Part shown: positions 1,635 through 35,119 of the stretch, in pieces | Numbering within the stretch: position 1 is the first letter of the stretch | Layout: each line of letters starts with the position of its first letter | Source: a bacterium | GTDB lineage: Bacteria > UBP6 > UBA1177 | Direction: 5' to 3' | DNA length: 64,000 bases | Assembly: GCA_017963125.1 (NCBI GenBank) | Contig: JAGCUA010000047.1 | Coordinates: 1-64,000 of the forward strand | Notes under the pieces: model-generated | What the model saw: the letters and a program-made list of their open reading frames with translations, nothing else | What the model was told of the DNA's origin: nothing | Database searches by the model: none | Position numbers and translations under genes: made by a program

Positions 1635-1690
1635 CCGAATATAATTCGGCAGGCCTTGTGGTATCTTCGCTTGGGCCTGTTTATTCACTT
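1635..1690 (+). terminator. Terminator region after the tRNA cluster
   Basis: A stem CAGGCC (1650-1655) pairs with GGCCTG (1674-1679) and is followed by a T-rich run to about 1695. Just before it, CCGAAT (1635-1640) pairs with ATTCGG (1644-1649) and is preceded by an A run, so it could end transcripts from the other strand. Confidence 0.4.
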
Positions 1691-1711
1691 TTTTTGTTCA
1701 GAGGTATGAAA

Positions 1712-3562
1712 ATGAAGAAATTCAAATGTCTGGTTGTAGTGTTTATTGCGGCTCTGCTCGTTTCCTGCGGCGGCGGGGATAAAGACAAGCCGGAATGTGT
1801 CACTAATTCCGACTGCGGTGACGGTCGTGAATGCAAAGAAGGTTTTTGTTTTGACAAAGAGCCTGAAGAAGAACCGGAAACGAAGCCTGAGTGCGTCACT
1901 TCGGAAGACTGCACGGACGGCAAAGAATGTCAGGACGGTAAATGCGTGATTGTCGAACCTACAGAATACTGCGGAGACGGAATTGTCAACGGCTCCGAAG
2001 CCTGCGACGACGGCAAAGACGCTAATGACGGTCATTACGGCGGCTGCAACGAGGACTGCACTTTGGCAGACTACTGCGGCGACGGCACAGTCAACGGCGA
2101 AGAAGCCTGCGACAAAGGAACAGAAGGAAACGTCGGCGGCTACAACGGCTGCAAGGCTGACTGCACGCTTGACGAAAGATGCGGCGACGGTGTTAAAAAC
2201 GGCACAGAAGAGTGCGATGACGGCGAAAACAACGGTGTTTACGGATATTGCAACGCTCTTTGCACAGGTGCAGGCGACTACTGCGGCGACGGCGTTCAAA
2301 ACGGCGAAGAAGCTTGCGATGACGGTGAAAACAACGGAAAATACGGAAAATGCAATACCGAATGCACCGGTTTAGGCGAAAGATGCGGCGACGCTGTTAT
2401 TCAAAGAGCAGTATGTGAACTGCCGGAAGAAGAAACTGATACAGATGCAGAAACTACAGATACAGAAAATACAGATGCTGATGCAGAAACTACAGACACA
2501 GACACAGAAACTACAGATACAGAAAATACAGATACCGATACGGAAACTACAGACACAGATCCGACTGAGCCGGAAGAAATGTGTGTTGTCAATGAACTGG
2601 CTAACGAAGATTGCGATGAAGGCGAACTCAACGGTGTTTACGGACACTGCAACGCTGAATGCACGGGCTTCTACGGCTGCGGTGACGGAAAGCTCCAGCG
2701 CGAAAACTGCGAAGGCTACGGGGAAGACTGCGTAGTAACTGAAGGCATAAACGAAGAATGCGACTACGGCGTAAACAACGGAACCGAATACTGCAAATAC
2801 GGCGAAGAAGAACAGGAAGGCGTGACCTGCAAACGCTGCACAACCGAATGCAAACTCTCTGAAGAAGACGCGACTCTCAGCTACTGCGGTGATGCGGCTA
2901 TAGTCGGGCTTAACGGTGAAGTCTGCGATGACGGTAAAGCTACAAACGGAACGATTTACGGACAGTGCAATGCAGAATGTACAAGCCTTATGGTTTGCGG
3001 TGACGGAGTCACCCAGCGTGCAGGCTGCACAGGTTACGACAACTGCACCGAAGTCGCAGATGCAAACGAAATATGCGACGGCAATACCAAATCGTGCAAA
3101 GAAATTGCTCCCGTATTTTCGGCAGAAAGCGAAGCCCTTTGCAGCGAATGTTCATCCTGGGATGAATCGACATGCCAGTGCGCGGAATACTACTCCGGTA
3201 ACGGCTGCCTCAGCTGTGACGGAGCTCACTTCTGCAACGGACACGGAACATGCACAGCCGACAGAACCGGCAAGACGACCTGCGCGTGCACGGATCATTT
3301 CACAGGTCCGACCTGCAACGAGTGCGAGGAAAAATACCACCTCAATGATGCAGGCACAAAATGTATCGAAGACTGCCACTCGTCATGCGGACAGGCAAGC
3401 TTCCTCATCAATCCGGCAAGCCACGGCCACTGCGACTACTCCGGCGACAAAGGAGTATGCGCATGCGATCCTTGCTGGATGACAACAGGTGTTGCACTTG
3501 TTCTGCCGACATTTGAAACTCCTGAGTGTGCACAGTACACTCCGAACGTACCCGGCTGCTAA
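1712..3562 (+). CDS. Cysteine-rich lipoprotein with Myxococcus-type repeats and EGF-like modules
   Basis: The start is placed at ATG 1712 because GAGG at 1701-1704 sits 7 nt upstream; ATG 1706 is in frame but too close. The product starts MKKFKCLVVVFIAALLVSC, a lipoprotein signal with a clear lipobox. After two short CxxxxxCxxGxxC modules come many repeats of the form YCGDGxxNGxExCDDG...CNxxC, the Myxococcus cysteine-rich repeat (DUF4215-like). At 2430-2570 a Thr/Asp/Glu-only tract built of TDTE/TDAE units interrupts them. The C-terminal ~170 residues hold EGF-like Cys clusters (CxxHGTC, CxCxxxxxGPxCxxC). This is a surface or secreted, disulfide-rich protein; the ligand is unknown. The family points to Myxococcota-like relatives. 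Confidence 0.85.
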   Translation: MKKFKCLVVVFIAALLVSCGGGDKDKPECVTNSDCGDGRECKEGFCFDKEPEEEPETKPECVTSEDCTDGKECQDGKCVIVEPTEYCGDGIVNGSEACDDGKDANDGHYGGCNEDCTLADYCGDGTVNGEEACDKGTEGNVGGYNGCKADCTLDERCGDGVKNGTEECDDGENNGVYGYCNALCTGAGDYCGDGVQNGEEACDDGENNGKYGKCNTECTGLGERCGDAVIQRAVCELPEEETDTDAETTDTENTDADAETTDTDTETTDTENTDTDTETTDTDPTEPEEMCVVNELANEDCDEGELNGVYGHCNAECTGFYGCGDGKLQRENCEGYGEDCVVTEGINEECDYGVNNGTEYCKYGEEEQEGVTCKRCTTECKLSEEDATLSYCGDAAIVGLNGEVCDDGKATNGTIYGQCNAECTSLMVCGDGVTQRAGCTGYDNCTEVADANEICDGNTKSCKEIAPVFSAESEALCSECSSWDESTCQCAEYYSGNGCLSCDGAHFCNGHGTCTADRTGKTTCACTDHFTGPTCNECEEKYHLNDAGTKCIEDCHSSCGQASFLINPASHGHCDYSGDKGVCACDPCWMTTGVALVLPTFETPECAQYTPNVPGC

Positions 3563-4022: not shown

Positions 4023-4124
4023 GCCGATTAAGGAAACAGCGTTTCTTGTAAGGATGAAACTGTCAGAAAATCTCTAGATAAATTAGATAGTTATCTGAAA
4101 AATTCTTCTAAAAAAATCTTTTTT

Positions 4125-4162
4125 TGTCAACTCGCAGATTTTTCACCGCTTATTGATTGTGT
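4125..4162 (+). promoter_or_regulatory. Island element copy A (putative alternative-sigma promoter)
   Basis: TGTCAACT (4125-4132), 6 nt, TTTTTCAC (4139-4146), CGCTT (4147-4151), 7 nt, GTGT (4159-4162). It lies 21 nt before a strong ribosome-binding site and 14-codon ORF, and about 215 nt before viperin. Same layout as the copies at 8654, 16264, 33449 and 35082. Confidence 0.7.
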
Positions 4163-4182: not shown

Positions 4183-4227
4183 ATGATGGTTCCAACTTAT
4201 TTCATGTCGCTATTATGCGGCTTTTAA
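4183..4227 (+). CDS. 14-residue leader peptide candidate
   Basis: A very strong ribosome-binding site (AAAGGAGGAAT) precedes ATG at 4183. The frame reads MMVPTYFMSLLCGF and stops at 4227. It follows element copy A directly and precedes the structured leader of viperin, so it could be a regulatory leader peptide, a small functional peptide, or the remains of a lost gene. No database support could be checked. Confidence 0.4.
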   Translation: MMVPTYFMSLLCGF

Positions 4228-4246: not shown

Positions 4247-4377
4247 GTTGATTTTATTGTCACAAAAAAAATGTCCTGATTCCTGCACTGCTTTTTCTAC
4301 TCTCACAAACAAGAATGCTTGTGTTTGGGTTCCATGCCACGGAACCTGTTTATTTTTGTTCGTTAAAGGAGAGAAAG
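4247..4377 (+). promoter_or_regulatory. Structured leader, copy 1 (upstream of viperin)
   Basis: This ~130-nt leader is largely repeated at 8198-8329. Both begin GTTGATTTTATTG(T/C)CACA and both contain the stem GGTTCC (4328-4333) / GGAACC (4341-4346) followed by TGTTTATTTTTG, which resembles an intrinsic terminator about 30 nt before the start codon. It may work as an attenuator or a binding site in the RNA. The 4023-4377 stretch otherwise holds only element A and the 14-codon ORF. Confidence 0.5.
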
Positions 4378-5247
4378 ATGGAAAAAACGAATTACGTTTT
4401 CAACTGGCATGTTACTTCAAAATGCAACTACCACTGCCGTTTCTGCTATTCTGAATGGGAGAAGATGCAGGAAATCTGGGACGATCCGCAGAAAGTCGCC
4501 GCACTTCTGAAAAATCTTTCAGAGAGCAGACTTTTCAAAAGAGGTAAAACCCGCCTGAACATTGCAGGCGGCGAAGCAACTATTAACATGAAAAATCTTG
4601 TTTCGGTCATTGAAACGGCATGGAGCAAGGGTTTTGTGCTGTCAATTATCACCAACGGTTCCCGTCTTGAAAATCTGATACCCTTCATCGATAAATTCTC
4701 AATGGTCGGCATATCGGTGGATTCGGCCTGTGATGAAAACAACGTCAAAATAGGCCGCTGCACAGGCAAAGGAGAGGTCATGACTTTTTCAGAACTTTGC
4801 AAAAAGGTTGAGGCACTCAGAGCTGCGAATCCGGGATTGATCATCAAAATCAACTCGGTGGTAAACGCGTTCAACTGGAACGAGAATCTGCTCGGTCAGC
4901 TTAAGTCTGTCGGCGCGCAGAAGTATAAGATCCTGCGCCAGATGCCTTTCAACGGCAATAAAGGTGTAAGCGATGATCAGTGGCAGCATTTCCTCGAACT
5001 CAACCGTCATCCCGAACTGAATGTCGTTGCTGAAGATAATGAGGATATGATCAACAGCTACCTGATGATAGCTCCCGACGGCAGATTCTTCCAAAACGGT
5101 GGCACGGAATATGCCTACAGCTCGCATTCTCTCTGGGAAAGACCTGCCGACGAGCTGCTTTCCGAAATGAAATTTGACGAAGATAAGTTTCAAAGCAGAT
5201 ACACCTGCCCCGATTCCTCTGACGAAGAAAAAAATTCAAATTGTTAA
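4378..5247 (+). CDS. Prokaryotic viperin (antiviral radical SAM enzyme)
   Basis: A 289-residue radical SAM protein. The cluster motif is CNYHCRFC (Cys16, Cys20, Cys23), followed by IAGGEA near residue 63. Segments characteristic of viperin rather than other radical SAM enzymes are ISVDS (about 112), NVKIGRCTGKG (about 122), KINSVVNAFN (about 157) and NSYLMIAPDGRFFQNGG near the end. Viperins convert CTP (or other NTPs) to 3'-deoxy-3',4'-didehydro nucleotides that stop viral RNA polymerases. ATG 4378 is chosen because GGAGAG sits 7 nt upstream. The C-terminal end (SRYTCPDSSDEEKN) lacks the usual aromatic tail of vertebrate viperin. It is followed by a 39-residue ORF and an ankyrin protein. Substrate is not decided by the sequence. 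Confidence 0.85.
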   Translation: MEKTNYVFNWHVTSKCNYHCRFCYSEWEKMQEIWDDPQKVAALLKNLSESRLFKRGKTRLNIAGGEATINMKNLVSVIETAWSKGFVLSIITNGSRLENLIPFIDKFSMVGISVDSACDENNVKIGRCTGKGEVMTFSELCKKVEALRAANPGLIIKINSVVNAFNWNENLLGQLKSVGAQKYKILRQMPFNGNKGVSDDQWQHFLELNRHPELNVVAEDNEDMINSYLMIAPDGRFFQNGGTEYAYSSHSLWERPADELLSEMKFDEDKFQSRYTCPDSSDEEKNSNC

Positions 5248-5257
5248 TGGAGGTGTT

Positions 5258-5377
5258 ATGCTGAATCCGATGAAAATGAAGATGGAACACAAACGCAACG
5301 GCTTGAATTTGGTCAGCGATATAATGTGGAAATCAATTCAAAACGGCGTCTTCGGCGCAGGAGTAAAACATGAGTGA
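5258..5377 (+). CDS. 39-residue protein of unknown function between viperin and the ankyrin gene
   Basis: ATGGAGGTGTT-style ribosome-binding site (GGAGG at 5249-5253) directly precedes ATG 5258. The product MLNPMKMKMEHKRNGLNLVS... is basic, Met-rich at its start, and has no membrane segment. Its stop overlaps the start of the next gene (ATGAGTGA at 5370-5377), so translation is probably coupled. A small partner or regulator of viperin or the ankyrin protein is possible, but nothing proves it. Confidence 0.5.
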   Translation: MLNPMKMKMEHKRNGLNLVSDIMWKSIQNGVFGAGVKHE

Positions 5378-8183
5378 AGAGAACAAAACAAAATTCGGGA
5401 ATATGCCGCTTGGCAGGATCAACGAAATGCTGGTTTCTTTTATCGGTGAAGATGCGTTTCTGGACTACTGTGAAAAGCATCATAAAGACTGGGGGCTTGA
5501 TAACTGGCACTCAAGAGATGCTTTCAGCAAACATCTTCAGAGACTGTTTGAAGAAAAAGAGAGTTCCTATCGTGATTTGAATCCGCATTACGACCAATCG
5601 GTATACAGGATTGCCTTTAAAATTTTGGATGACTTTTGTGAGCAGTATGGTTTATCACCCTACATTTTTAATATCATCGCAAAGATCGGTTGCAATCTTA
5701 TCGCTCGGCTTTGCCACTCAAGTGCACCCGTTTTTGAAACATATTACATCCTCCTTTATGAAATTTGCCAAAATGTTCTGCCCACTCTTCTTGAGAAAGC
5801 CGTTGATGAAATCGGCAAAAACAACGGCTTTTCGTATTTTGATGCAGAAAGAAAATATAATATGGCTTTTAACGAATTAGGCAGGCAATTCGAGAGTCTG
5901 GAAAAATTTTATACCAAATTGTCTGAACACCTTTGGGACAGTCCTACATCGACATGGTATAAAGATTGGTATAAAGAGTCGTATAAACAGAGATACGAAA
6001 AGAGATATAAAGAGATGCATAAAGAGAAGTGGAAGAAGAAGTTGGATGAGAAAATCAATAATAAGCTCGACTGGAAGGATTGCCTTCGCCTTCACTTCAA
6101 AGACATAGTAATTTACAATTGTAAAAAGGGCCAAAATCCAACTCAATGGAATGATATGAAAGCCATTCTCGAATTCTGCAAAAAAGAAGATAAGAAAACA
6201 GAAATGTCGTGTTTAATTGAAGCTTATCTGACAGCCAATATGGAGAATTTTATAAAAGCGGAAATCCCAGATGATACGCTGGAGAAAATAAAAGATTCTC
6301 TTAAAAAAATCGGCGATGTACTAGATAAATCCGTCGCCAGTGGGGAAAAAAACCTGCAAAATCTTTATGATTCGGCAGACAGACTGTTGTACGAAATGGA
6401 ACCGACTATTTTTACAAATTTAAATTTGCCAGAAGACAATTTTAAGCCTATAGATTCGGCTCTTTCGGAGATTCTTATAAATCATATTTACCTTCAGGAT
6501 GAAAAGAGAGCGGAGGATTTAATCTCGAATACTTCCGGTTTTTATTGCAACTGGCTTCTCGCCTATATTGCGGTTGCAAAAGGCGAATTTGAGATCGCGA
6601 AAAAATTCTACAAAGCAGCATTCGACAACATTCACTTTGCAGGAATATGCGCCGCGCCTTTTCTGAAACAGGCGCTTGCTCTTTCCGTTTATTGTGATTT
6701 AAATCCGGATAGCGTCCGCAAAGTGATAGATCCTGAAAAGAATTCCGAAAATCCTTTGCCGCAGGACGGAAAAAGGTTTTGGGAGTACGGCTACGCCATT
6801 GGAGTTTTTGATGAACCAGCTAACGAGACTTTTCCGAAACTTGTATACTGGAGAGAAAATTTTTCTGCTGAGTTTCCGCAGGAAATGTTTTTCCATGACA
6901 TAGAAGTCTCTCCCAACAGAACAAAACCGGCTCCAGCAGGGAATTTTGTTTTTTGTGCAGGAAACATTAAAGAAAAAATAGAAGAATATTATAGCAGTCT
7001 CTCCGCATTAAAAGAAGGGGGTATAAACAAACGTCAGAAAATCTTTGATGGGGACGCACAAAGGAGGCCTCCGCTTTCTGCGGCTATATACCTCCTTACC
7101 ATCTCTTCAATAGAAAAGTTTACTGATTTGGAGGAAAAGTTCCTTGATTTGATAGAAAGGTGGCTTGGGCTCTCCGACCCGGAAACAGCGATCAAAGAAT
7201 TGGATCTCAATGTTATCGCTGATTTAGGCGAAACACCTTTGAATATGGCAACTATAGCGTACAAGGATTTTTGCGCAAAGAACAGCGACCCTGAATCTCC
7301 ATTAAAGAAAAGGCTGAAAAAAATAGTGACCCACATTTTAGGCAAAACCGATAAAAATCACTTGGAGAAGGTCACCGAAAGAAGAAGAATTCATCCTTTG
7401 CAGAATGTCATAGACTCATGCGATATTGAGTTAGTCAAAGAATTTGTCGAAAAATTTCTTGAAGTCAAGCTCGATATTGACAGCATTAGACTTACACCTG
7501 ACGAAATATCGCCGGTATATTACACAATTGGTCGCATTGTCAAGCTTCAAGATCCCAAAGCAAACTACGGACATCATAACACCAATTGGAAATATCTGGA
7601 TGTGCCGGGAATAACTGCAGAAGACAGAAAAAGGAACTTTTTCGACAAAATGAACAATTTGACCCCTGAAATGCAAGCATTGCTTAACGAATATGTCATA
7701 AGAGAAGATTTGGGTGACGAAAGCACATACGGAGAGCAGATAGAAAAGCTGAAAGAAATATGCCTCTATCTTATAGAGCAGACGAAAGATCAAGATGCAT
7801 ACAAATTCAGCAACAACCTTGGAACAGAATGGACAAGCCTTACTTTTGCAGCCGAAACTGATGATGTCGATATTTGCCGCGCATTGCTTGAGCACGGAGC
7901 TGACCCGAACATTTCTCTTAAAGCAGGAGGAGGGGACAAAATTCCGAATACATTTTTGCACAGATGCATCAGGCATGAAGCTTGGTATGTGCTTGAAATG
8001 TTTTTGACGGATTTTAAAGATAAAGCAGAAAAAACAATCAAAGAATACAGTAACTCAGAATATGAACCGCTTGCCTTTTTCAAAGCAAAAAACAAAGAAA
8101 AAAGGGAGGGGTTTATAGATAAATTTACCAAACTGTTCGAATCATGCGGTGCCAACTTCACTATCAACCCGACCGACGAATAA
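5370..8183 (+). CDS. Large protein with C-terminal ankyrin repeats
   Basis: A 937-residue soluble protein. The N-terminal 800 residues match no family that I recognise; there is a charged YKERYKEMHKEKWKKK stretch around residues 205-230 that may form a helix or coiled coil. Residues about 820-880 read SLTFAAETDDVDICRALLEHGADPN...FLHRCIRHEAWYVLEMFL, two ankyrin repeats. It lies in the viperin operon, overlapping the preceding 39-residue ORF by 8 nt. An adaptor or sensor role is an inference from the ankyrin repeats and the context. Confidence 0.75.
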   Translation: MSEENKTKFGNMPLGRINEMLVSFIGEDAFLDYCEKHHKDWGLDNWHSRDAFSKHLQRLFEEKESSYRDLNPHYDQSVYRIAFKILDDFCEQYGLSPYIFNIIAKIGCNLIARLCHSSAPVFETYYILLYEICQNVLPTLLEKAVDEIGKNNGFSYFDAERKYNMAFNELGRQFESLEKFYTKLSEHLWDSPTSTWYKDWYKESYKQRYEKRYKEMHKEKWKKKLDEKINNKLDWKDCLRLHFKDIVIYNCKKGQNPTQWNDMKAILEFCKKEDKKTEMSCLIEAYLTANMENFIKAEIPDDTLEKIKDSLKKIGDVLDKSVASGEKNLQNLYDSADRLLYEMEPTIFTNLNLPEDNFKPIDSALSEILINHIYLQDEKRAEDLISNTSGFYCNWLLAYIAVAKGEFEIAKKFYKAAFDNIHFAGICAAPFLKQALALSVYCDLNPDSVRKVIDPEKNSENPLPQDGKRFWEYGYAIGVFDEPANETFPKLVYWRENFSAEFPQEMFFHDIEVSPNRTKPAPAGNFVFCAGNIKEKIEEYYSSLSALKEGGINKRQKIFDGDAQRRPPLSAAIYLLTISSIEKFTDLEEKFLDLIERWLGLSDPETAIKELDLNVIADLGETPLNMATIAYKDFCAKNSDPESPLKKRLKKIVTHILGKTDKNHLEKVTERRRIHPLQNVIDSCDIELVKEFVEKFLEVKLDIDSIRLTPDEISPVYYTIGRIVKLQDPKANYGHHNTNWKYLDVPGITAEDRKRNFFDKMNNLTPEMQALLNEYVIREDLGDESTYGEQIEKLKEICLYLIEQTKDQDAYKFSNNLGTEWTSLTFAAETDDVDICRALLEHGADPNISLKAGGGDKIPNTFLHRCIRHEAWYVLEMFLTDFKDKAEKTIKEYSNSEYEPLAFFKAKNKEKREGFIDKFTKLFESCGANFTINPTDE

Positions 8184-8197
8184 AAAAGCCCTAACTA

Positions 8198-8329
8198 GTT
8201 GATTTTATTGCCACAAAAAAAGTGTCCGGATTCTCACACTGCTTCCATTCAAAAAATGAATAAAAACAATCGCGGCTGGGTTCCATACCACGGAACCTGT
8301 TTGTTTTTTTCATTAAGAAGGAGAAAAAG
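8198..8329 (+). promoter_or_regulatory. Structured leader, copy 2 (upstream of zinc-ribbon protein 1)
   Basis: Near copy of 4247-4377. It has the same GTTGATTTTATTG opening, the same CACTGCTT block, and the hairpin GGTTCC (8279-8284) / GGAACC (8292-8297) followed by TGTTTGTTTTTTTC and a ribosome-binding site. Confidence 0.5.
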
Positions 8330-8626
8330 ATGAAGGATGATTTTGGAAGAGATTTGAGATGCGAAAGCGAGGGGAAAATCTGTTACTCTAAAAAAGAGGC
8401 CGGAACCGCTATCAACGGGGCAAAACATCACGGCAACAGAGCAAAAAAGATTCCCAAGAGAATGTATCCATGTAAAGAGTGCGGTCATTATCACCTGACA
8501 AGCCAAGCCGTTTCCCACAAAAAAGACGGACATCAGGAAAAATACCGCTTCAAAAAAGAGAAACTTCGCAAGCGTGAAAACAAATATGACTGGCGCGAAG
8601 AATGCCGCCTTCTTTGTGTTGCATAG
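8330..8626 (+). CDS. Small zinc-ribbon protein, paralogue 1
   Basis: A 98-residue basic protein: CESEGKICYSKKEA...KKIPKRMYPCKECGHYHLTS. The pattern GK-x-CY...EA...A..H...KK-P-R..Y-CxxC-x(2)-HLTS is that of small Zn-binding proteins seen in phages and mobile DNA (YxCxxCgxWHLTS). Two paralogues occur at 16337 and 35149; all three end with WREE(C/Y)xLL. Start ATG 8330 follows AAGGAG. Unlike its paralogues it is preceded by the structured leader instead of the 38-bp element. Probably nucleic-acid or protein binding; role unknown. Confidence 0.75.
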   Translation: MKDDFGRDLRCESEGKICYSKKEAGTAINGAKHHGNRAKKIPKRMYPCKECGHYHLTSQAVSHKKDGHQEKYRFKKEKLRKRENKYDWREECRLLCVA

Positions 8627-8653
8627 ATAACACAAGAACCCGTATGGAATTTT

Positions 8654-8691
8654 TGTCAACTTCACCTTTGTTCACCGCTTACAGGAAGTGT
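8654..8691 (+). promoter_or_regulatory. Island element copy B (putative alternative-sigma promoter)
   Basis: TGTCAACT (8654-8661), 6 nt, TTGTTCAC (8668-8675), CGCTT (8676-8680), 7 nt, GTGT (8688-8691). It is 27 nt before the nrdG start, with an AGGAGG site between. Confidence 0.7.
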
Positions 8692-8717: not shown

Positions 8718-9164
8718 ATGAAAAAGACCATCAGAGTTGCTGCTATTAAAGAAGATTCTTTAGGTGACGGTCCGGGATGCAGAACCGTCCTTTTTCTGCA
8801 AGGATGCGATATTCATTGCGACGGATGCCACAACCCGAGCACGTGGAACCCTGACGGAGGCACAGAATACGAGATCAGTGATCTGTGCTCTGAAATCAGA
8901 GCTAAAAGCTGCCGCAAAAAACTGACGATCAGCGGAGGAGAACCTTTGCTGCAAAAGGATGCTGTTCTCGAACTCTGCAAAGCTCTGCAGGATTTTGATA
9001 TATGTCTTTACACTGGACACGATTTTAAAGAGATTCCCGAAGCACTGCGGAAATACCTTAGTTACGTAAAATTCGGTCCGTTTAAGAAAGAATTATTAAT
9101 TCATACCCAAGCGTACTACGGTTCTTCAAATCAAACATTCAGAGAGGTAAAAAAAGATGCTTAA
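8718..9164 (+). CDS. nrdG: Anaerobic ribonucleotide reductase activating protein
   Basis: A 148-residue radical SAM protein with the NrdG cluster motif CDIHCDGCHN (CX3CX2C), LTISGGEPLLQ, and the SLGDGPGCRTVLFLQGC opening. It uses S-adenosylmethionine and a 4Fe-4S cluster to generate the glycyl radical on NrdD. Its stop codon overlaps the nrdD start. Unusually, the pair is placed under the island element B and not with housekeeping genes, so it may be an extra, stress- or phage-induced copy. Confidence 0.93.
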   Translation: MKKTIRVAAIKEDSLGDGPGCRTVLFLQGCDIHCDGCHNPSTWNPDGGTEYEISDLCSEIRAKSCRKKLTISGGEPLLQKDAVLELCKALQDFDICLYTGHDFKEIPEALRKYLSYVKFGPFKKELLIHTQAYYGSSNQTFREVKKDA

Positions 9165-10851
9165 TCAGAACAAAAACGACAATGCGGCAAACCGCAAAAG
9201 CTACATCGGAGCAAATTACAACATCGGAGAAGAAGCGGTAAAAGAGAATGTTCTTGCTTCGCTTCCGAAAGAATTGGCGGAACTTCACAGGCAGGGCTAT
9301 ATTCACATCCACGATCTTGACGCATACGGCCAGACCTACAACTGCCTGACATTCGACATTAAAAACGCTTTTCCTTATGAAAAATTCACAGGACTCGGCG
9401 AAACAAAAATCATTATCGGTGTTTTTGATTTTATAAAAGAAATCTTTGCAAAAATGGGAAACGAGCAGGCAGGCGGAATGGCATTCGCGAATTTTGACAA
9501 AGATTTTGCGGAAATATTTACAAAACTCGGAGTATCATTCGAAAACTTTGAAGATATTTTCAGAGCATCAACAGGATCTCTCATCAAGTGGTGCAACGAC
9601 ATGCACACCAGAATGGGCCAGACCAGTTACTATGTGACGTTCAACATCGGTCTCGGAACCGATAAATTCTCCCGTTTTCTCAGTTTCACTCTCATTGACG
9701 AATTCGAAAACGCAGGAGATATGGTATACAAACCGAATATCGTCTTCAAGATTCACAAGGGCGTCAACCGCTCGAAAGGCGATCCGAATTTCGATCTGTA
9801 CGAAAAAGCTCTTCTCTGCACATCAAAGAAAATGCTTCCGACTTACCTTCTCTGCGACTGCGAAGAAGACAGAGATACAGATCCTGAAAAACTGTCGGTA
9901 ATGGGATGCAGAACAAGAGTCGTCAACGACATTTTCGGTAAAGAGGGAGCTGTCGGACGCGGCAACATCACGAACATTTCGGTCAATCTTCCCCGGCTGG
10001 CACTTGAAGTTGCCAAAAAACACCAGGCGGAGACAGGTGCAGCAAAAATCGAAGAATTGAAAAAACGCTGGCTGGAAATCGCCGGACCGACAGCCATGAT
10101 TCTGCTCGACAGATATGAAAAAACCGTTAAAGCGGACGATTCGCTCTTCCCGACAAACCACGAATATAAATTCTGGTGCGAAGATATGAACACATCCGGC
10201 TTGGAAGGAACTTTCAAACACGGAACTCTTTCGATAGGATTCATCGGCTTAAGTGAAGCCATCGAAATCCTTACCGGATTCAAATACTGGGAAAATGAAA
10301 ACGCCTACAGATACGCTCTCGATTTCGTCGCTTTCATGCGAGACTATACAGATTCCTTAACCAAAAAATATCATCTGAATTTCTCACTGCTTGCAACAAG
10401 CGGAGAATTGATCAGCGGCAGATTCACGGAGATCGACAAAACAATCTTTAACCATCCAGCACTAAAAAAAGACTTCTACACGAACTCGTTTCATGTCAAT
10501 GTTGACAGCGGACTGCCGGCACACAAGAAACTTGAAGCGGAGGGACCTTTCCACAAGTTCGCAAACGGCGGCTCCATTTCCTATATCGAACTCAAAGAAG
10601 CGCCTCTCGGCAACATTGAAGGACTTGCCGATTTAGCGGAAATAGCCATCGAGAGCGGAGTCCGCTACCTTGGATTCAATTTTCCCAAAGACACATGCAA
10701 AGACTGCGGCACTTCAGGAGTATTCGATGTCTGTCCGAAATGCGGCGGGAAAGACATTACAAGAATCAGAAGAGTTTCGGGTTATCTTGAAATTTTGGAC
10801 GGTTTTACTAAAGGCAAAAAAGCGGAAGAAAAAAACAGGAGAGCAAACTGA
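9157..10851 (+). CDS. nrdD: Anaerobic ribonucleoside-triphosphate reductase
   Basis: A 564-residue glycyl-radical enzyme that reduces NTPs to dNTPs without oxygen. Visible features are the YIHDLD-like segment (IHIHDLDAYG), ITNISVNLPRLAL, the C-terminal zinc site CKDC...CPKC (about 514-530) and the glycyl-radical loop RRVSGYL at about 537-543. It lacks an N-terminal ATP-cone, so the usual dATP/ATP activity switch is missing, as is common in shorter or phage-type NrdD. It overlaps nrdG by 8 nt and the next gene by one base. Confidence 0.93.
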   Translation: MLNQNKNDNAANRKSYIGANYNIGEEAVKENVLASLPKELAELHRQGYIHIHDLDAYGQTYNCLTFDIKNAFPYEKFTGLGETKIIIGVFDFIKEIFAKMGNEQAGGMAFANFDKDFAEIFTKLGVSFENFEDIFRASTGSLIKWCNDMHTRMGQTSYYVTFNIGLGTDKFSRFLSFTLIDEFENAGDMVYKPNIVFKIHKGVNRSKGDPNFDLYEKALLCTSKKMLPTYLLCDCEEDRDTDPEKLSVMGCRTRVVNDIFGKEGAVGRGNITNISVNLPRLALEVAKKHQAETGAAKIEELKKRWLEIAGPTAMILLDRYEKTVKADDSLFPTNHEYKFWCEDMNTSGLEGTFKHGTLSIGFIGLSEAIEILTGFKYWENENAYRYALDFVAFMRDYTDSLTKKYHLNFSLLATSGELISGRFTEIDKTIFNHPALKKDFYTNSFHVNVDSGLPAHKKLEAEGPFHKFANGGSISYIELKEAPLGNIEGLADLAEIAIESGVRYLGFNFPKDTCKDCGTSGVFDVCPKCGGKDITRIRRVSGYLEILDGFTKGKKAEEKNRRAN

Positions 10852-11417
10852 TGATTTATTACATCTCCGACCCCCACTTTAAAGACCAGAAAATCTTCGA
10901 CAAGTGCAGCAGACCTTTTGCTTCACTTGATGAAATGGAAAAATTAATTGTTGAGAAGTGGAACAAAAAGGTTAAGAATGACGATACCGTTTATGTTTTA
11001 GGCGATATCGGCAAAGACGATGATCCGTCAACTATCCTGATATTCAGCAGATTAAACGGCCGCAAACACTTGATAGTCGGTAATCACGACCATGAAATAC
11101 TGGAAGAAATTAAAAAATCCGGCATGTTTGAATCAGTCAAATTCATTGATTTGATCGAAGATTCGGGCTTCAAAGTATGTTTGTGCCACTATCCGCTGAT
11201 GGATTGGATGGAATTTAACAGAAACAGTCTGCTTGTCTACGGACACATTCACAACAAAACCGAAAAAAACGGACCGGCATACAAACAGATGAAAGATTAC
11301 TATAAAAATCTACCGGCTTATAACTGCGGAGTTGATGTCACAGATTTTGAACCTAAAACACTGGAAGAACTTATCAACCTTAAAAAGGAGAAGAAAAATG
11401 ATCCATATATCCATTGA
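10851..11417 (+). CDS. Calcineurin-like metallophosphoesterase
   Basis: A 188-residue protein with the full metallophosphoesterase set: SDPHF (DxH), GDI, GNHD, CHYP and YGHIH. Short cytosolic enzymes of this group hydrolyse phosphodiesters or phosphomonoesters, and similar ones occur in phage genomes. The ATG at 10851 shares a base with the nrdD stop, so it is translationally coupled. Given the neighbours, a nucleotide substrate is plausible but unproven. Confidence 0.85.
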   Translation: MIYYISDPHFKDQKIFDKCSRPFASLDEMEKLIVEKWNKKVKNDDTVYVLGDIGKDDDPSTILIFSRLNGRKHLIVGNHDHEILEEIKKSGMFESVKFIDLIEDSGFKVCLCHYPLMDWMEFNRNSLLVYGHIHNKTEKNGPAYKQMKDYYKNLPAYNCGVDVTDFEPKTLEELINLKKEKKNDPYIH

Positions 11418-11979
11418 AGGGATGGACGGAGTCGGAAAATCAACGGTATGTGCTTTGCTGGCAAAGAAACTCGGATACAAATTCATCGAAAAACCGCTGC
11501 ACTATCTTCTTGATGACTCTGAAAATGATATAGCGCAGTACCAGAAAGTCGCAAAACGGGTAAATTCCAATCCGGACAGAAACTTTACGGCATGGTACTA
11601 CGCATTGAACAATATCTACACCTACACACAATTCAAAGGCGAAAACATTGTCACAGACAGACACATCGTCTCGAACTACTGCTGGAGCGGCACAGAATAC
11701 AACAGCGACATCTACGATCTCGTTCTGAAAAAAATCGGAAAGCCGGCACTTACCGTTATCCTCTATGCAAAACCCGATGCGATTTTAAAACGTCTTAAAA
11801 ACCGGAATCCGGAAGACCCTGATATTGCCAAAGTGGAAAAATCTGAAAAAGCCTATGAAAAAATGATCCGATTCTGTAAAGAAAGAGAGTTTAACTACAT
11901 TGTAGTTGATTCTTCGGAAAAGACTCCGGAAGAAATCGTTGATGAAATTTTGAAAAAAGGGGATTTAAACCATGCCTAA
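11398..11979 (+). CDS. Thymidylate-kinase-like nucleotide kinase
   Basis: A 193-residue P-loop kinase: IEGMDGVGKST at residues 5-15, a DRH motif near residue 85 (VTDRHIVSNYCW), and a lid-region RLKNRNPEDP. These features fit the thymidylate kinase/deoxynucleoside kinase group. ATG 11398 is chosen because AAGGAG lies 8 nt upstream; it overlaps the phosphoesterase gene by 20 nt. Viperin genes in animals sit beside CMPK2, and this kinase shares a regulatory element with the viperin locus, so it could feed nucleotides to viperin. Substrate base cannot be told from sequence. Confidence 0.8.
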   Translation: MIHISIEGMDGVGKSTVCALLAKKLGYKFIEKPLHYLLDDSENDIAQYQKVAKRVNSNPDRNFTAWYYALNNIYTYTQFKGENIVTDRHIVSNYCWSGTEYNSDIYDLVLKKIGKPALTVILYAKPDAILKRLKNRNPEDPDIAKVEKSEKAYEKMIRFCKEREFNYIVVDSSEKTPEEIVDEILKKGDLNHA

Positions 11980-14431
11980 ATACTCAATTCAGGAAATAAA
12001 TTCCATCGCAAAAGATATGAAATACGAAGCTCTTTACTGGGCTTTGGGGTTTGAAAAAAAAGACTCCGGCATTTTTCAGAAACAGTATGCAAAAGATCGT
12101 TACGGAGAAATTGATTCAGAAAAACAATCCGCACGTTTTGACGGAATAGACAAAACTATCCCGCTGAACACTCACGAATCTTTTGTTGTGATTGAATGTC
12201 TGGATAAACTTCTCTCCATGGGCTATGAGCCGGAAGAAATTTCAGTGTTTCCTGACGACACCGGATCTGATATTTGCTGCAAAGGACTGCAAATAAAGTG
12301 TTTTGAATGGAATCATATCGAAAATATTGATAAAACGCCTGCCAATCACGAAAACAAATTCATCAATTATCAGTCAAGGCTCGTGAGCGGACTTATCGAG
12401 CGGGAATATTTTGTAAAAAATCACGAAAACGAACTCTATACTTCAGGCATTTTTGAACTAGACAAAAAAGCAGAAGAATACTGTCTTATCAATCCTAAAG
12501 CTGTTAAATCAAAGGATTTTATCATCAAAGGAACAAAAGTTCTGGAACATACCGGTCACCAGAAAAACGTCGTTGTTCCCGACGGAGTAACAGATCTTGC
12601 ATCATGTCTTTTCTGGGACAATCAGGAAATAGAAGAAGTGATTCTTCCGGAATCCTTGATAAATATTGGCGGAGATACCTTCTATAACTGCCGGAATCTG
12701 CGGAAAGTGAACATTCCTGCCAAAGTAAAAATTATGGGCAACAATCCTTTCGCAGGATGTCCCACGGCAGAAATCATAAATAATTCAAGCAACTTCCAAA
12801 TGGAAGACGGGGTTTTGTACGACAGAAATTTCTCCAAACTCATATACTATCCAATATCCAGAAAAGAAAAATCCTACCAAATAAAATCCGGCACAAAGAT
12901 CGTAGGCAAACACGCCTTTTTTCTGTGCAGCAACCTTATTGAACTTACTATTCCTGAATCTGTAATAAAATTGGAAAACAACCCTTTTTCAGGCTGCGAC
13001 AAATTAAGTATCGACAACAGATCAGCTTCATACAAAATCATTGACAAGGTTATTTACGACAGAGAACTTTCGTCGGTAATAGGATGCCTGAATTCCATAA
13101 AAACACAGGAACTGCGCCTTGAAAAAGTAAAGAAAATATGCCGGAACTCTTTCTGGAACTGCAAAGGGATCAAAAAAATCATTTTACCAGAAACCTTGGA
13201 AACTATCGGCTACAATCCGTTTGTCGCCTGCTCTGAAATCGAATTCGTATCAGAATCGGAAAATTTCGTGGTCGAAAACGGTCTCCTTCTTTCAAAAGAC
13301 AGAACCAAACTGATCTGCTGTCCGGCAAAATCCGCCATTGGAGAAATTCATATTCCGGACAGTGTCACGAATCTGGAGCGTGGAGCATTTTCGGGATGCG
13401 GCGAAATGACATCGATAAACCTTCACAATGTTTCCATCATAGGCAAAAGCTGCTTTACGAACTGCGATTCCCTGAAAACCGTTTACTGTTCCGATCTTGT
13501 TGCCTATATCGGGGAGTGGGCTTTCGCTCATTGCAGAAACTTGTCGGAAATTTCAGTTTTCCAAGAGTGTTTCATCGACAAAAATGTTGTTTCCAACACT
13601 CCTGCAAAAATTACTTTCAGAAACATCCGTTCAAATTATGTGATCGAATCAGACAACCTTTTTACGCTGAAATCCATGATAAAAAACTATGAAGGCAAAA
13701 TCAAAGCGATACTGATTGACCCGCCTTACAATTCACATATAGACTACATCGGTTATAAAGACGAATACGAGGGCTCAGGATACGAAAAATTTATGGAAGA
13801 ACGCATCGAACTTAGTAAAACACTGCTTTCAGAAGACGGTTTTCTGGTTATAAACATTGATGAGAACGGATTGGACGACATCGTAAAAGTATGCAAACGA
13901 AATTTCGGCGAAAAGCATGTCTCTGTCAAAAAATGGAAGAAAAAACACGAGTTTTTTGATGCCAACAGAGTCGTTTTAAATCCTAACAAAGTCCAGACCG
14001 ATTTTGAATTTATCGTTTTTGCCAAAAAATCGGAAAAATCGGTTTTTAACAACATCATGCAGCCCTATATTGAAAACGGTGTTTTGCGCGAAAAGCCGTC
14101 GTCACTTCCTGAAATTTTTGATTGTTTCGGTACAACATCGTCCGCAAAAGATGAAATAGAGGAAATTTTTGGCAGGAGAGATTATTTTTCGACACCTAAA
14201 CCTGTAAAATTATTGAAAGAACTTATTCGTGCCACAACAAACAGGGATTCCATAGTTATAGACTTTTTCGCAGGAAGCGGAACTACAGGACATGCAGTTT
14301 TTGAACTCAACAGAGAAGACCGCGGAAGCAGAAAATTCATTCTCGTTTCGAACAGCGAATCCGATATTTGCAGAAATGTCACAATGAAACGGATGGATAG
14401 CATCGGCGTAGAATACACTGCATTATGTTGA
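11972..14431 (+). CDS. Fusion: N-terminal nuclease-like region, BspA-type leucine-rich repeats, DNA methylase
   Basis: An 819-residue fusion. Residues 1-150 contain VVIECLDKLLSMGY and D100...QIK (107-109), which loosely resembles a PD-(D/E)XK fold. Residues about 175-545 are BspA-like LRR repeats (ESLINIGGDTFYNCRNLRKVNIP and similar). From about 560 there is an amino-DNA methylase with DPPYNSHIDYIGYKDEY (about 582) and FFAGSGTTGHAVFELN near the C-terminus, an order typical of type III Mod-like N6-adenine/N4-cytosine enzymes. Overlaps the kinase gene by 8 nt. Repeats may supply target recognition or protein binding. No separate restriction subunit is adjacent. Confidence 0.8.
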   Translation: MPKYSIQEINSIAKDMKYEALYWALGFEKKDSGIFQKQYAKDRYGEIDSEKQSARFDGIDKTIPLNTHESFVVIECLDKLLSMGYEPEEISVFPDDTGSDICCKGLQIKCFEWNHIENIDKTPANHENKFINYQSRLVSGLIEREYFVKNHENELYTSGIFELDKKAEEYCLINPKAVKSKDFIIKGTKVLEHTGHQKNVVVPDGVTDLASCLFWDNQEIEEVILPESLINIGGDTFYNCRNLRKVNIPAKVKIMGNNPFAGCPTAEIINNSSNFQMEDGVLYDRNFSKLIYYPISRKEKSYQIKSGTKIVGKHAFFLCSNLIELTIPESVIKLENNPFSGCDKLSIDNRSASYKIIDKVIYDRELSSVIGCLNSIKTQELRLEKVKKICRNSFWNCKGIKKIILPETLETIGYNPFVACSEIEFVSESENFVVENGLLLSKDRTKLICCPAKSAIGEIHIPDSVTNLERGAFSGCGEMTSINLHNVSIIGKSCFTNCDSLKTVYCSDLVAYIGEWAFAHCRNLSEISVFQECFIDKNVVSNTPAKITFRNIRSNYVIESDNLFTLKSMIKNYEGKIKAILIDPPYNSHIDYIGYKDEYEGSGYEKFMEERIELSKTLLSEDGFLVINIDENGLDDIVKVCKRNFGEKHVSVKKWKKKHEFFDANRVVLNPNKVQTDFEFIVFAKKSEKSVFNNIMQPYIENGVLREKPSSLPEIFDCFGTTSSAKDEIEEIFGRRDYFSTPKPVKLLKELIRATTNRDSIVIDFFAGSGTTGHAVFELNREDRGSRKFILVSNSESDICRNVTMKRMDSIGVEYTALC

Positions 14432-14445
14432 CTCCAGTTATAACT

Positions 14446-16020
14446 CTATATTCTGGTTTTTTTGATGCATTCGAGCAGATATTTGCAGCAGTCGATGGTT
14501 TTTCCCTTATATTCCTCTTTCAGAAGCTCATCATTGTTATGCTGATATTTATTCCTTGCCTTTTTCAAATGACCTGTCGCTTCTTTAAATTTGTCGTGTT
14601 CTTCAAATATTTCTCTTAAATTCAGATTAAAATACTCCAATTCACACAATAAAAACAAACCTCTGGTATATATCGCTTCAAGAATGGTGATCTCTGCGTC
14701 AGGTTTCATACACCCTGAATCCAGTTCCTGCTCATTCTTCATCTTATCTTTCAGCTTTATTGCTTCTTCTAAACAATAGGAAAGAGAGTATTCCTCCATT
14801 GTGTAAGTTTTACCCGTACTTTTATCAGTAAAAGGCTTGGCGTTTTTTCTCGGAATGTCGTTTGGATAGAAATACTTCTGCATTTTCTGCCGAGTCTTTT
14901 CAGAGATTTTCAAAATATATTTGTCAGCGATCCTGTTTTCCCAATCTTCTTCGGAATATACCCTTTTCAATCGGTATTTCAGAATCTTTCTCATTCCAGT
15001 CTCAGTATCATGCCAGAGCGGAAAGAAATTGATATCCCGTTCTTTCATTTTCATATATTCATATAGTTTTCCTGAGATAATTTTCGGATTTTTTCTGTCA
15101 TCAAGAATTCCGTAATCATATAAAGTGTCAATATCGATCTGAGTGCACTTTTCATCCATAGGACCGAAGACTATCTGATAGAGCTTGTTCTTCAGCTCTT
15201 CGCCCAGCAAATTAAGTATTGCCTCAAATTCAGGATATATAATTTTTGCTTTTTCCCTGAATATTGTCTCCATATCCGCAGTTTTGCCATCGTCTTTTGC
15301 CGCTTTATATTCGGCCAGAATAATATCTGACCAGTATGGATGACCTCCGGCAAAGCATTTAAGGAGAGCACGCTCTTCATCATTCAGTTCAATACCTAAA
15401 GTTGAGTTGTAACGATAATAATTAACAAGCTCTTTATCGGAAAATCCGCGTAAATACAGCAAGTTATCCCCAATAAAGTCCAATTCTTTTATCGGGAGTT
15501 CTGAGACAAAAACAAATGAAACACCATATTTTTCGGGATTTGTTAGCAACTCTTTGAAAACAGCAAAAACTCCTGAATAACTCGCCAATAATTCAGATGA
15601 GTTATAAAATTCATCGACAACACAGACCACTCTTCTTTTATAACTATTCATTATCTTAAAAAATTCACACAAAGTGAGATATCCGCCTTTTCCTATACTC
15701 TCGTTTTGGATTTTTTCATTTAGTTGAAGCAGCTTGCTGGAGTAAACCCATGAATCTGAATCCCTCGAAATAACTTTACAAATTGCTCCTATAATATTTT
15801 TGAAAAGATCATCCGCGGAATCAAATACCTTTGCAGATATGTTGGCAACAACAACATTTTTTTGATAATATTCATCGGTTTTAGTCTCAAAAACATTGTA
15901 AACAAGTGAGGATTTTCCAATTTTCGGCATTCCTACCAAATTTACGGAACGACCGTTTTTAATGGTTTGCTTAAGTAATTTCTGCTCTACTTCTTTTCTT
16001 TGGATATAAATCTTTTCCAT
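14446..16020 (-). CDS. P-loop ATPase with C-terminal HEPN-like RNase motif
   Basis: A 524-residue protein when started at ATG 16020 (GGAAG upstream); an in-frame TTG start at 16056 is possible. Walker A is GMPKIGKS (30-37), and Walker B is VVCVVDEFYN near residue 150, as in AAA/STAND-type ATPases. The C-terminal part ends with KKARNKYQHNND, where R489 and H494 form the Rx4H motif of HEPN ribonucleases, in a helical context like Swt1-type HEPN domains. I infer an infection-triggered RNase switched by the ATPase. It is transcribed against the rest of the island, converges on the methylase gene, and forms an operon with the membrane peptide at 16072. Confidence 0.7.
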   Translation of the reverse strand: MEKIYIQRKEVEQKLLKQTIKNGRSVNLVGMPKIGKSSLVYNVFETKTDEYYQKNVVVANISAKVFDSADDLFKNIIGAICKVISRDSDSWVYSSKLLQLNEKIQNESIGKGGYLTLCEFFKIMNSYKRRVVCVVDEFYNSSELLASYSGVFAVFKELLTNPEKYGVSFVFVSELPIKELDFIGDNLLYLRGFSDKELVNYYRYNSTLGIELNDEERALLKCFAGGHPYWSDIILAEYKAAKDDGKTADMETIFREKAKIIYPEFEAILNLLGEELKNKLYQIVFGPMDEKCTQIDIDTLYDYGILDDRKNPKIISGKLYEYMKMKERDINFFPLWHDTETGMRKILKYRLKRVYSEEDWENRIADKYILKISEKTRQKMQKYFYPNDIPRKNAKPFTDKSTGKTYTMEEYSLSYCLEEAIKLKDKMKNEQELDSGCMKPDAEITILEAIYTRGLFLLCELEYFNLNLREIFEEHDKFKEATGHLKKARNKYQHNNDELLKEEYKGKTIDCCKYLLECIKKTRI

Positions 16021-16071
16021 CCGATTTTCTTCCGGAATGGAAACATTTTCCGGCAATTGCTTTTTACGGTA

Positions 16072-16197: not shown

Positions 16198-16263
16198 TGA
16201 ATTCTCCCACACCTAGAACCAAAGCGGGAAAATATAAACAATCCGAAAAAAATCTCAAAAATA

Positions 16264-16301
16264 TGTCAACTTCCCCGTTTTTCGCCGCTTATACTTCGTG
16301 T
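16264..16301 (+). promoter_or_regulatory. Island element copy C (putative alternative-sigma promoter)
   Basis: TGTCAACT (16264-16271), 6 nt, TTTTTCGC (16278-16285), CGCTT (16286-16290), 7 nt, GTGT (16298-16301). It is 36 nt before zinc-ribbon protein 2. Confidence 0.7.
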
Positions 16302-17650: not shown

Positions 17651-17715
17651 TCACAACTTGTAACACTCTAAATTTATTGCGATTTTTATTCTCAAAAATA
17701 TTTTTTTATTTTTTT

Positions 17716-17880
17716 TGTCAACTTATCAATTTTTCACCGCTTATATATAACGTGACGGTTCTTTAAAAGTAACGACTGTTGTTAAACCGATTTGCAATTA
17801 CCGCAAATATTGTTACACTACCGTGCGTTTGTGTTAGCAATCTTTGTGAAGCATTATAAACCAATTTTCAGGAGACCAAA
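17716..17880 (+). promoter_or_regulatory. Island element copy D with long structured leader
   Basis: TGTCAACT (17716-17723), 6 nt, TTTTTCAC (17730-17737), CGCTT (17738-17742), then ATATATAAC before GTG; spacing to GTG is two bases longer than in the other copies. A ~125-nt leader follows, with a stem ATTTGC (17790-17795) / GCAAAT (17803-17808) and a second imperfect inverted repeat TGTTACAC / GTGTTAGCA. It precedes the operon of eight genes at 17881-33417. Confidence 0.65.
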
Positions 17881-18582
17881 ATGGCATTCGATCCTACAAA
17901 GTACACAACGACCAAAGCAAAACCTCTTCCTGTTGTTTTACTGTTAGACACAAGTTCCAGCATGAGAGGCGGCGGAGAACAGTCTAAAATCGCTGAACTT
18001 GAGAAAGCTGTTCGTGAAATGATTAAAGATTTTGCTAGTGAAGAGCAGATTGAAACAGAAATTCAGCTTGCGGTTATCACATTTGGCAGTGAAGTAAAAC
18101 TGGCTCTTCCTTATACAAATGCATCAAAAGTCGAACTGAACAATCTGGAAGCTAGCGGAATGACCCCGATGGGAGGCGCACTCAAAATGGCAAAAGACAT
18201 GATCGAAGACAAGGAAGTTACCCCGGGGAGAGCATACAAACCGCTGGTAATTCTTTGTTCCGATGGTGCTCCGAATGATGTTTGGGAACAGCCGATGCAG
18301 GATTTTATTGCGAACGGACGCTCTTCAAAGTGTGACAGAATGGCTATGGCTATCGGATCGGATGCAAATGAAGATGTTCTGAAACGCTTTATCGCCGGAA
18401 CAGACAACCCTCTGTTTTATGCAAAAGATGCATCTTCTCTGCATAAATTCTTTAAGTTCGTAACAATGAGCGTTACCAGCAGAAGTCGTTCCCAGAGTCC
18501 GAATCAGCTTGTAAAGATAGAGGCGCCCAAAAAACTTCTTGAATCTCCGAAAGAAGTCGGAACAACACAGAATTATTGGTAA
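17881..18582 (+). CDS. terY: TerY-type VWA-domain protein
   Basis: A 233-residue protein, almost entirely a von Willebrand A domain. The metal site DxSxS is D23-S25-S27 (LLLDTSSSM), the conserved Thr is in GMTPMGGAL, and the Asp in LCSDGAPND. This is the TerY1-like member of the TerY-phosphorylation triad (VWA, PP2C phosphatase, kinase), known from comparative genomics of tellurium-resistance-associated systems. Preceded by CAGGAGACC. First gene of the big operon; probably a metal-dependent assembly or phosphorylation-target subunit. Confidence 0.8.
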   Translation: MAFDPTKYTTTKAKPLPVVLLLDTSSSMRGGGEQSKIAELEKAVREMIKDFASEEQIETEIQLAVITFGSEVKLALPYTNASKVELNNLEASGMTPMGGALKMAKDMIEDKEVTPGRAYKPLVILCSDGAPNDVWEQPMQDFIANGRSSKCDRMAMAIGSDANEDVLKRFIAGTDNPLFYAKDASSLHKFFKFVTMSVTSRSRSQSPNQLVKIEAPKKLLESPKEVGTTQNYW

Positions 18583-18607
18583 ACTTATCGTCGGAGACAA
18601 GAGTTAA

Positions 18608-19078
18608 GTGGTTGAAATTTCGGTAATAATCGATTCTTCCGGCAGCATGAGCGCTCTGTCGAAACACGACATTGTACAAAGTGTCTGCCGGAATCTTCTT
18701 CTTCACGAGAACTTTGAGTTCAAATTCTATTCATGGTCAGACTCTGTAAGAGAAATTTCTTATTTAAAAGAAGGTCTTCCCTTAAATTCTGACGGAAAAT
18801 CAAATCTTTCCGAACTTGCAGACTTCATTCAGAGCAACAATTCCAAAAACATCATCCTGCTGACAGACGGCTTCATTGACAAAGAGGCTCCTCAGATAAA
18901 AGACCTGATCGAAAAACTGAATTTCAGACTCGTCGGGATAGGTGCTGATTTTGATAGCGGTTTGGCGTCCCGGCTTTTTCCAAAAAATCTTATAGCGGTC
19001 GATGAAGATAAATTTTTGTTCACTGCATTGGATTTGGAAGCGGCTTTGGACTCTTTTTGTACAACAGAAGACGTATGA
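18608..19078 (+). CDS. Second, short VWA-domain protein
   Basis: A 156-residue VWA protein with DSSGS (D9, S11, S13) and LLTDGFID as the later Asp. The start is GTG at 18608, with CGGAG some 12 nt upstream, a long spacing. The Thr of the metal site is not obvious, so the site may be incomplete. Its stop overlaps the PP2C start (ATGA at 19075-19078). It likely pairs with the VWA protein at 17881 in the same complex. Confidence 0.75.
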   Translation: MVEISVIIDSSGSMSALSKHDIVQSVCRNLLLHENFEFKFYSWSDSVREISYLKEGLPLNSDGKSNLSELADFIQSNNSKNIILLTDGFIDKEAPQIKDLIEKLNFRLVGIGADFDSGLASRLFPKNLIAVDEDKFLFTALDLEAALDSFCTTEDV

Positions 19079-21274: not shown

Positions 21275-21280
21275 AGAGTC

Positions 21281-24739: not shown

Positions 24740-24750
24740 GGAAATCAAAA

Positions 24751-26916: not shown

Positions 26917-26929
26917 TAGGGAGAAAAAA

Positions 26930-33417: not shown

Positions 33418-33448
33418 AAATTTTTTTTCAAAAAAAAAGAAAAATTTT

Positions 33449-33486
33449 TGTCAACTCTTTCTTTTTTCGACGCTTGTATATAGTGT
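33449..33486 (+). promoter_or_regulatory. Island element copy E (upstream of the CARF/sigma pair)
   Basis: TGTCAACT (33449-33456), 6 nt, TTTTTCGA (33463-33470), CGCTT (33471-33475), 7 nt, GTGT (33483-33486). It is 77 nt before the CARF-like gene. If the downstream sigma-like protein recognises this element, the operon would activate itself. Confidence 0.7.
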
Positions 33487-35064: not shown

Positions 35065-35081
35065 CAACTTTTAAAAAATTC

Positions 35082-35119
35082 CGTCAACTCCCTCGTTTTT
35101 CATCCCTTTTATTAAGTGT
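35082..35119 (+). promoter_or_regulatory. Island element copy F (putative alternative-sigma promoter)
   Basis: CGTCAACT (35082-35089), 6 nt, TTTTTCAT (35096-35103), CCCTT (35104-35108), 7 nt, GTGT (35116-35119). The most diverged copy, 30 nt before zinc-ribbon protein 3, with an AGGAGG site between. Confidence 0.65.

Follow-up and report, generated by a model that had tools for sequence, protein, structure and literature searches.

The Calp system consists of the SAVED-Lon protease CalpL, the anti-sigma factor CalpT and the sigma factor CalpS (PMC12751052, PMC11229360), and the SAVED-Lon protease releases the sigma factor (PMC12751052). CARF proteins that regulate transcription include Csa3 and the sigma-54 activator RtcR (PMC4012209). 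The locus described here lies in the first 64,000 nucleotides of contig JAGCUA010000047.1 from a UBP6 bacterium of the rumen, spirochaete-like in character (assembly GCA_017963125.1), and this whole stretch is called the window. It is a multi-cassette defence/accessory island which holds a prokaryotic viperin (pVip) gene, a short DNA element that heads the viperin unit and several other gene cassettes, and, behind its own copy of that element, a gene pair for a probable CARF protein and a sigma-70-like protein.

As in Calp, a protein that senses a nucleotide signal of the CRISPR type (SAVED in Calp, CARF in the window) seems to be tied to a sigma factor and would drive a transcriptional immune response. 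The window pair differs in being a stand-alone 205-amino-acid CARF protein beside a sigma-like protein of divergent sequence; no Lon protease was recognised in the pair, nor any anti-sigma factor. Its system also lacks Cas10 in seven of eight genomes and has a recognisable set of candidate target promoters. Like Csa3 and RtcR it would link a CARF domain to the transcriptional regulation of genes for defence or repair, but here the CARF and DNA-binding functions are split between two proteins, the second of which resembles sigma-70. With chromosomal integrons and defence hotspots the island shares exchangeable cassettes at one locus in one orientation; unlike integron cassettes, those of the window are multigene and carry a promoter-like element at the head, and no attC-like site or integrase was found among the genes examined. 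The proposed control in the window differs from Calp and from the CARF regulators in that its readable candidate target promoters delimit exchangeable cassettes. The literature was searched for a CARF/sigma-70 pair of this kind and none was found, which is not proof of absence.

The main features are these.

4122-4151, + strand: element copy 1, 0 mismatches, heads the viperin unit; -35/-10 arrangement GTCAAC-N15-CGCTTA, like that of extracytoplasmic function (ECF) sigma factors
4378-5247, + strand: prokaryotic viperin of the radical S-adenosylmethionine (SAM) nucleotide dehydratase family, 289 amino acids (aa), by profile matches, structure matches and tree
8651-8680, + strand: element copy 2, heads a cassette of NrdG, NrdD, phosphoesterase, dTMP kinase and methylase genes
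16261-16290, + strand: element copy 3, 2 mismatches, core exact
17713-17742, + strand: element copy 4, heads the CoCoNuT/TerY-P-like cassette
33446-33475, + strand: element copy 5, heads the CARF/sigma-like pair
33563-34180, + strand: probable TM1812-type CARF protein, 205 aa, by TIGR02221 below the curated cut-off
34183-35064, + strand: divergent sigma-70-like protein, 293 aa, with a C-terminal helix-turn-helix (HTH), by profile comparison with RpoD/SigA
35079-35108, + strand: element copy 6, 3 mismatches

The element follows the pattern TTTTGTCAACT-N9-TTC-N2-CGCTTATA, with GTCAAC-N15-CGCTTA as its strict core. Promoters of ECF-type sigma factors have an upstream block that contains AAC and a downstream one that contains CG, with about 15-17 nucleotides (nt) between them. 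The six copies all lie between 4 and 36 kb on the + strand, and elsewhere in the window's genome only control-level matches were found. A search for the core covered 15 genomes of the genus with about 35 Mb in total and gave 30 exact matches. All of them fall in a single contig per genome, as one island, and all have one orientation, facing the downstream genes; about 4 matches would be expected anywhere by chance, and the reversed-pattern control gave 2. The consensus of 39 copies is TTTTGTCAACTc....gTTTTtCacCGCTTATAt.T.GtGtg, or in shorter form TTTTGTCAACTc....gTTTTtCacCGCTTATA, with two conserved blocks at a fixed 15-nt spacing and a TATA-rich 3' part that is likewise conserved. Spacer and flanks vary, but the 12-base core keeps both its sequence and its spacing. 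Most of these copies stand 20-100 nt 5' of the first gene, often 5-100 nt 3' of the previous one. The element is best read as a probable promoter. The tRNA promoter-like sequence at 1259 (TTGACA..TAAATT) is unlike it, and on the + strand from the preceding gene (stop at 4022) to viperin there is no match to a sigma-70-type promoter. The earlier note had placed viperin under a regulon-wide element. Together, the clustering and the lack of a sigma-70-type + strand promoter before viperin support shared-element control at the level of sequence; the element is indeed common to several units, but it is island-wide and not genome-wide.

The element also marks where genomes of the genus exchange genes. 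When 500 nt on each side of element copies were compared across different genomes, 26 pairs were homologous on the upstream side only, 67 on the downstream side only and 18 on both. Upstream identity of 90-99% frequently reaches the element and ends there. Because homology breaks at the element, the units are exchangeable cassettes, and what lies between the elements is modular, with genes reshuffled from genome to genome. At the first position of the island, the window and genome G004 are 96% identical upstream and then diverge, into viperin in the window and MoxR genes in G004. Three genomes have the viperin cassette in first place and G013 has it in third, and identical spacer versions of the element reappear at different positions. 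On these alignments the viperin cassette is one exchangeable unit of the island.

The pair stands behind its own element in 8 of the 8 genus genomes with at least three elements and in none of the other 7, a split with a probability of 1 in 6435 under random assignment, uncorrected for relatedness. It is absent from 13 further genomes of the phylum. The position of copy 5 suggests autoregulation. All eight orthologs of the CARF protein are matched by TIGR02221, at best with 3e-13 but under the curated cut-off, and two by the Card1 CARF model. Its single-sequence AlphaFold model is poor, so the top Foldseek matches, which are CARF proteins, were taken as supportive only. The sigma-like protein has the region 2/3 homology of the sigma-70 family. 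Aligned with the genus RpoD by hhalign it gave 88% and a score of 52, while none of 60 column shuffles exceeded 22.5 and the alignment in reverse scored 22. The top matches of its profile in the PDB are RpoD/SigA (E 0.015-0.11), and its orthologs match RpoD_Cterm at 1.8e-4 and, in 5 of 8, sigma70-ECF. The C-terminal HTH matches Sigma70_r4_2 in one of the eight (0.0099) and other HTH families in the others.

What ties the element most strongly to the pair is the sequence of pTS2, a plasmid of Treponema saccharophilum, a species available from a culture collection as JCM 32279. It encodes a 39% identical CARF protein with a collinear sigma-like homologue directly after it (hhalign 96%). In its 381,873 bases there is a single exact match to the core, at 212394 and the start of the CARF/sigma-like operon, and the same site is the sole match at any spacing from 10 to 20. 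The pair and the element are conserved together in Treponema.

Between the element and the CARF gene, pTS2 also encodes a 78-aa small protein (L129:8521-8757), which resembles a small open reading frame (ORF) behind an element in G014 (island position 7083) and may be a further component.

These results lead us to suspect, with a probability of roughly 0.6, that a CARF-linked sigma factor reads the element and so induces the cassettes of the island, viperin among them. Each cassette would be transcribed from the element, as a promoter with the GTCAAC-N15-CGCTTA core that is specific to the island, and the divergent sigma factor encoded there would read it. The adjacent CARF protein would set the activity of that sigma factor upon binding a nucleotide signal made during infection, and the element ahead of the pair would provide positive feedback. 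Viperin would convert a nucleoside triphosphate to a chain-terminating 3'-deoxy-3',4'-didehydro nucleotide, and would add such nucleotides to a wider response, which in the window's genome may include a CoCoNuT/TerY-P-like RNA-targeting system. The sigma activity, the CARF ligand, the viperin product and the antiphage function of enzyme and island are all predictions of this kind. Since the same promoter-like sequence stands before each cassette, immune genes may be switched on together, and if every cassette does carry the sigma factor's promoter, gene sets that enter behind the element would join the alarm response. Defence genes have mostly been catalogued system by system, and little is known about how a cell turns on many of them at once. 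In this island the candidate target promoters are legible in the sequence itself and point to a single candidate regulator pair, which makes the route from infection signal to co-ordinated defence testable in a small reconstituted system. The broader picture, that a CARF-controlled sigma factor commands an immune regulon of exchangeable promoter-carrying cassettes and that viperin is alarm-induced, as interferon-stimulated animal viperin is, is held tentatively, at somewhat less than even odds; if true, it would put a bacterial viperin under inducible control like its animal counterpart.

Several observations weigh against this proposal. The window's CARF protein scores 42 bits with TIGR02221, below the curated cut-off of 76. 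The single-protein scores of the sigma-like protein are weak, two of its orthologs are without the middle part, and no use could be made of its AlphaFold model (pLDDT 43). In G005 and G007 a single element remains although the pair is absent, and the one in G007 heads a viperin unit; the viperin of pTS2 has no element of its own. Some cassettes, with glycosyltransferases or lipoproteins, are not clearly defence. The source of the signal is a further difficulty. The window's genome has a type III-B (Cmr) CRISPR locus on contig C48 (L120:269-14053) which includes a 454-aa TM1812/Csx1-like CARF protein, but among the genus genomes Cmr2 (Cas10) is above the cut-off there alone, and the weak Csm1 matches are short fragments at either end of the model, below the cut-off. 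Type III CRISPR was therefore rejected as the signal source. Seven of the eight pair-bearing genomes are without a Cas10 able to make a cyclic oligoadenylate signal, so that another signal source or ligand is needed.

There are also rival explanations. The element could be an operator for an ordinary HTH transcription factor, either the 34183 product or an unseen regulator, with the housekeeping sigma factor transcribing the cassettes and the 34183 product merely resembling a sigma factor. The C-terminal HTH of that protein does match several non-sigma families, and some glycosyltransferase cassettes have a TTGACA..TATAAT-like promoter 3' of the element. This seems unlikely given the fixed 15-nt spacing of the two conserved blocks with their TATA-rich 3' part, a similarity to sigma regions 2-3 well above that of shuffles, and a + strand near viperin that is free of sigma-70-type promoters. 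The breaks in homology (the 26 upstream-only and 67 downstream-only pairs) and the identical spacer versions at different positions would also fit an element that is mainly a recombination site for cassette movement, either an integron-like attachment site or a homology block, with its promoter look secondary. No integrase is among the island ORFs examined, although no whole-genome IntI search was made, and the cassettes are multigene, with the element at the head and no attC site at the end. Neither is an inverted repeat conserved. No genome has three or more copies without the CARF/sigma-like pair, and the single Treponema copy is at the pair's operon, all of which makes a recombination site a distinctly improbable account of the element.

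A last alternative concerns viperin itself, which could be an ordinary, constitutive, horizontally acquired pVip whose element reflects gene conversion among neighbouring leaders and no common regulation. Viperin does move, because it is patchy in the genus (4 of 15 genomes) and because G018, from the same family-level lineage, has a viperin of a different subclade, which also indicates that viperin was gained more than once. The leaders also show homogenised spacers. Against this, the 12-base core and its spacing are conserved while spacer and flanks are not, and the core is found again beside the matching regulator pair of Treponema, although gene conversion between Treponema and these islands is implausible; we consider this explanation very improbable.

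The gene at 4378-5247 encodes a genuine prokaryotic viperin. Its start has a Shine-Dalgarno sequence, and the in-frame ATG at 4315 is a less probable start. The protein carries the CxxxCxxC motif as KCNYHCRFC and a GGE-type motif as GGEA. It scores 289.8 bits with the NCBIfam equivalog NF038283 (viperin_w_prok; cut-off 180) and just 32-39 bits with MoaA models, and the PADLOC pVip models match at 1e-80. The nearest solved structures are viperins. The segments which had been noted as viperin-specific (ISVDS, IGRCTGKG, KINSVVNAFN) do align with their counterparts in viperins, that of mouse (6q2p) among them. For the proposed phylogenetic check, a maximum-likelihood tree combined the protein with eukaryotic viperins, plasmid pVips and radical SAM enzymes of other kinds; in it the protein falls within the viperin clade, and outgroup radical-SAM proteins, MoaA-like ones included, separate from all viperins with 99% support. 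Two other remarks of the earlier note need correction. Bacterial viperins, which it called known but rare, are already annotated on plasmids of many phyla; and the C-terminal tail it called unusual is ordinary, since short variable tails trail the core in most aligned pVips. A viral or phage origin was considered and rejected: relatives of viperin are absent from the phages and viral contigs searched, as are the pair and the element from viral contigs.

The enzyme is an ordinary new member of the known pVip family, and what is new is its genomic setting. With the pVips of NF038283 it shares the fold motifs, CxxxCxxC, SxDS, IGR and K(I/L)N(S/T)VVN, as well as clade membership and a mobile, patchy distribution. 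It differs in having GGEA where they have GGEP, in the apparent control by the island element, and in its neighbours, which are an ankyrin protein and a coupled 37-39-aa ORF and not a nucleotide kinase. A nucleotide kinase does adjoin viperin in L005 and on cyanobacterial plasmids. The closest relative beyond the genus, from a Fibrobacter metagenome-assembled genome (42%), has a nucleotide-kinase-like gene next to it.

The viperin unit has the order element, 14-aa upstream ORF, viperin, 37-39-aa coupled ORF, ankyrin protein. Its smaller features and nearest neighbours are listed here.

4183-4227, + strand: upstream ORF of 14 codons, MMVPTYFMSLLCGF, with a strong Shine-Dalgarno sequence
4326-4348, + strand: terminator-like hairpin GGTTCC-ATGCCAC-GGAACC, directly 5' of viperin
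5258-5377, + strand: 39-aa ORF with a Shine-Dalgarno sequence, overlapping the start of the ankyrin gene
5370-8183, + strand: ankyrin protein, 937 aa, with C-terminal ankyrin repeats
8277-8299, + strand: second copy of the terminator-like hairpin, 5' of the zinc-ribbon small protein
8330-8626, + strand: zinc-ribbon-like small protein, 98 aa

About 115 nt of the viperin leader are identical across three genomes whose viperins are 91-93% identical. The upstream ORF is identical in G001 and G007; in G013 it reads MLPTYFLSL, with conservative or synonymous changes and then an earlier stop. The hairpin GGTTCCATNCCACGGAACC was rejected as a shared regulon element because the genome has just two copies and it is missing before viperin in the relatives: the window alone has one at that position, and none was found there in G001, G007 and G013. 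The leader was likewise rejected as a structured RNA, its folding lying within that of shuffles (z -0.83), and an Rfam scan of the window found tRNAs only and no known riboswitches.

The stop of the 39-aa ORF overlaps the ankyrin start, which suggests translational coupling. Its counterpart in three genomes has 37 aa, a length change that stays in frame. Within the genus, the ankyrin gene is present in the four genomes with viperin and in no other, and it adjoins viperin every time. Of the ankyrin and small-protein partners proposed earlier, then, the ankyrin protein is strictly linked and the 37-39-aa ORF is conserved, but the 98-aa zinc-ribbon protein is not specific to viperin, since its family also heads further cassettes (16313, 35149). 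This family of about 100 aa (MKDEFERxIRCExEGKICY...CKECGHYHLT) is the first gene of many cassettes, in the window at 8330, 16313 and 35149 and elsewhere in L065, L066, L068 and L072.

The remaining cassettes vary in content. The one at 8718-14431 (+ strand) encodes an NrdG-like activase, a short NrdD-like reductase, a phosphoesterase, a dTMP-kinase-like protein and a fusion of LRR_5 with an N6/N4 DNA methylase; it is also present in G001 and G009, the latter without viperin. An AAA_35 ATPase at 14446-16056 (- strand) closes this cassette on the opposite strand, and homologues close further cassettes likewise. A single element-headed cassette at 17881-33417 (+ strand) is a CoCoNuT-like type IV restriction locus with a TerY-P triad, which was compared with the published system (PMC11090510) and is confined to the island of the window's genome. 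The cassette encodes two VWA-type ORFs, a PP2C phosphatase, a Ser/Thr kinase, an SF1 helicase, an HTH protein, and coiled-coil AAA_5 (McrB-like) and DUF2357 (McrC-like) proteins. In L065 (minus strand) the element at 12171 is followed by a 1065-aa protein with a protein-kinase-like N-terminal part and an SF1-helicase-like part, and then by one whose C terminus may be of the PLD type; this cassette recurs in four islands (G004, G008, G013, G014). A cysteine-rich lipoprotein-like protein with CGDG repeats (1658-3562, + strand) bounds the island upstream in several genomes, and in the window its gene adjoins a tRNA Gly/Cys/Leu cluster (1299-1590).
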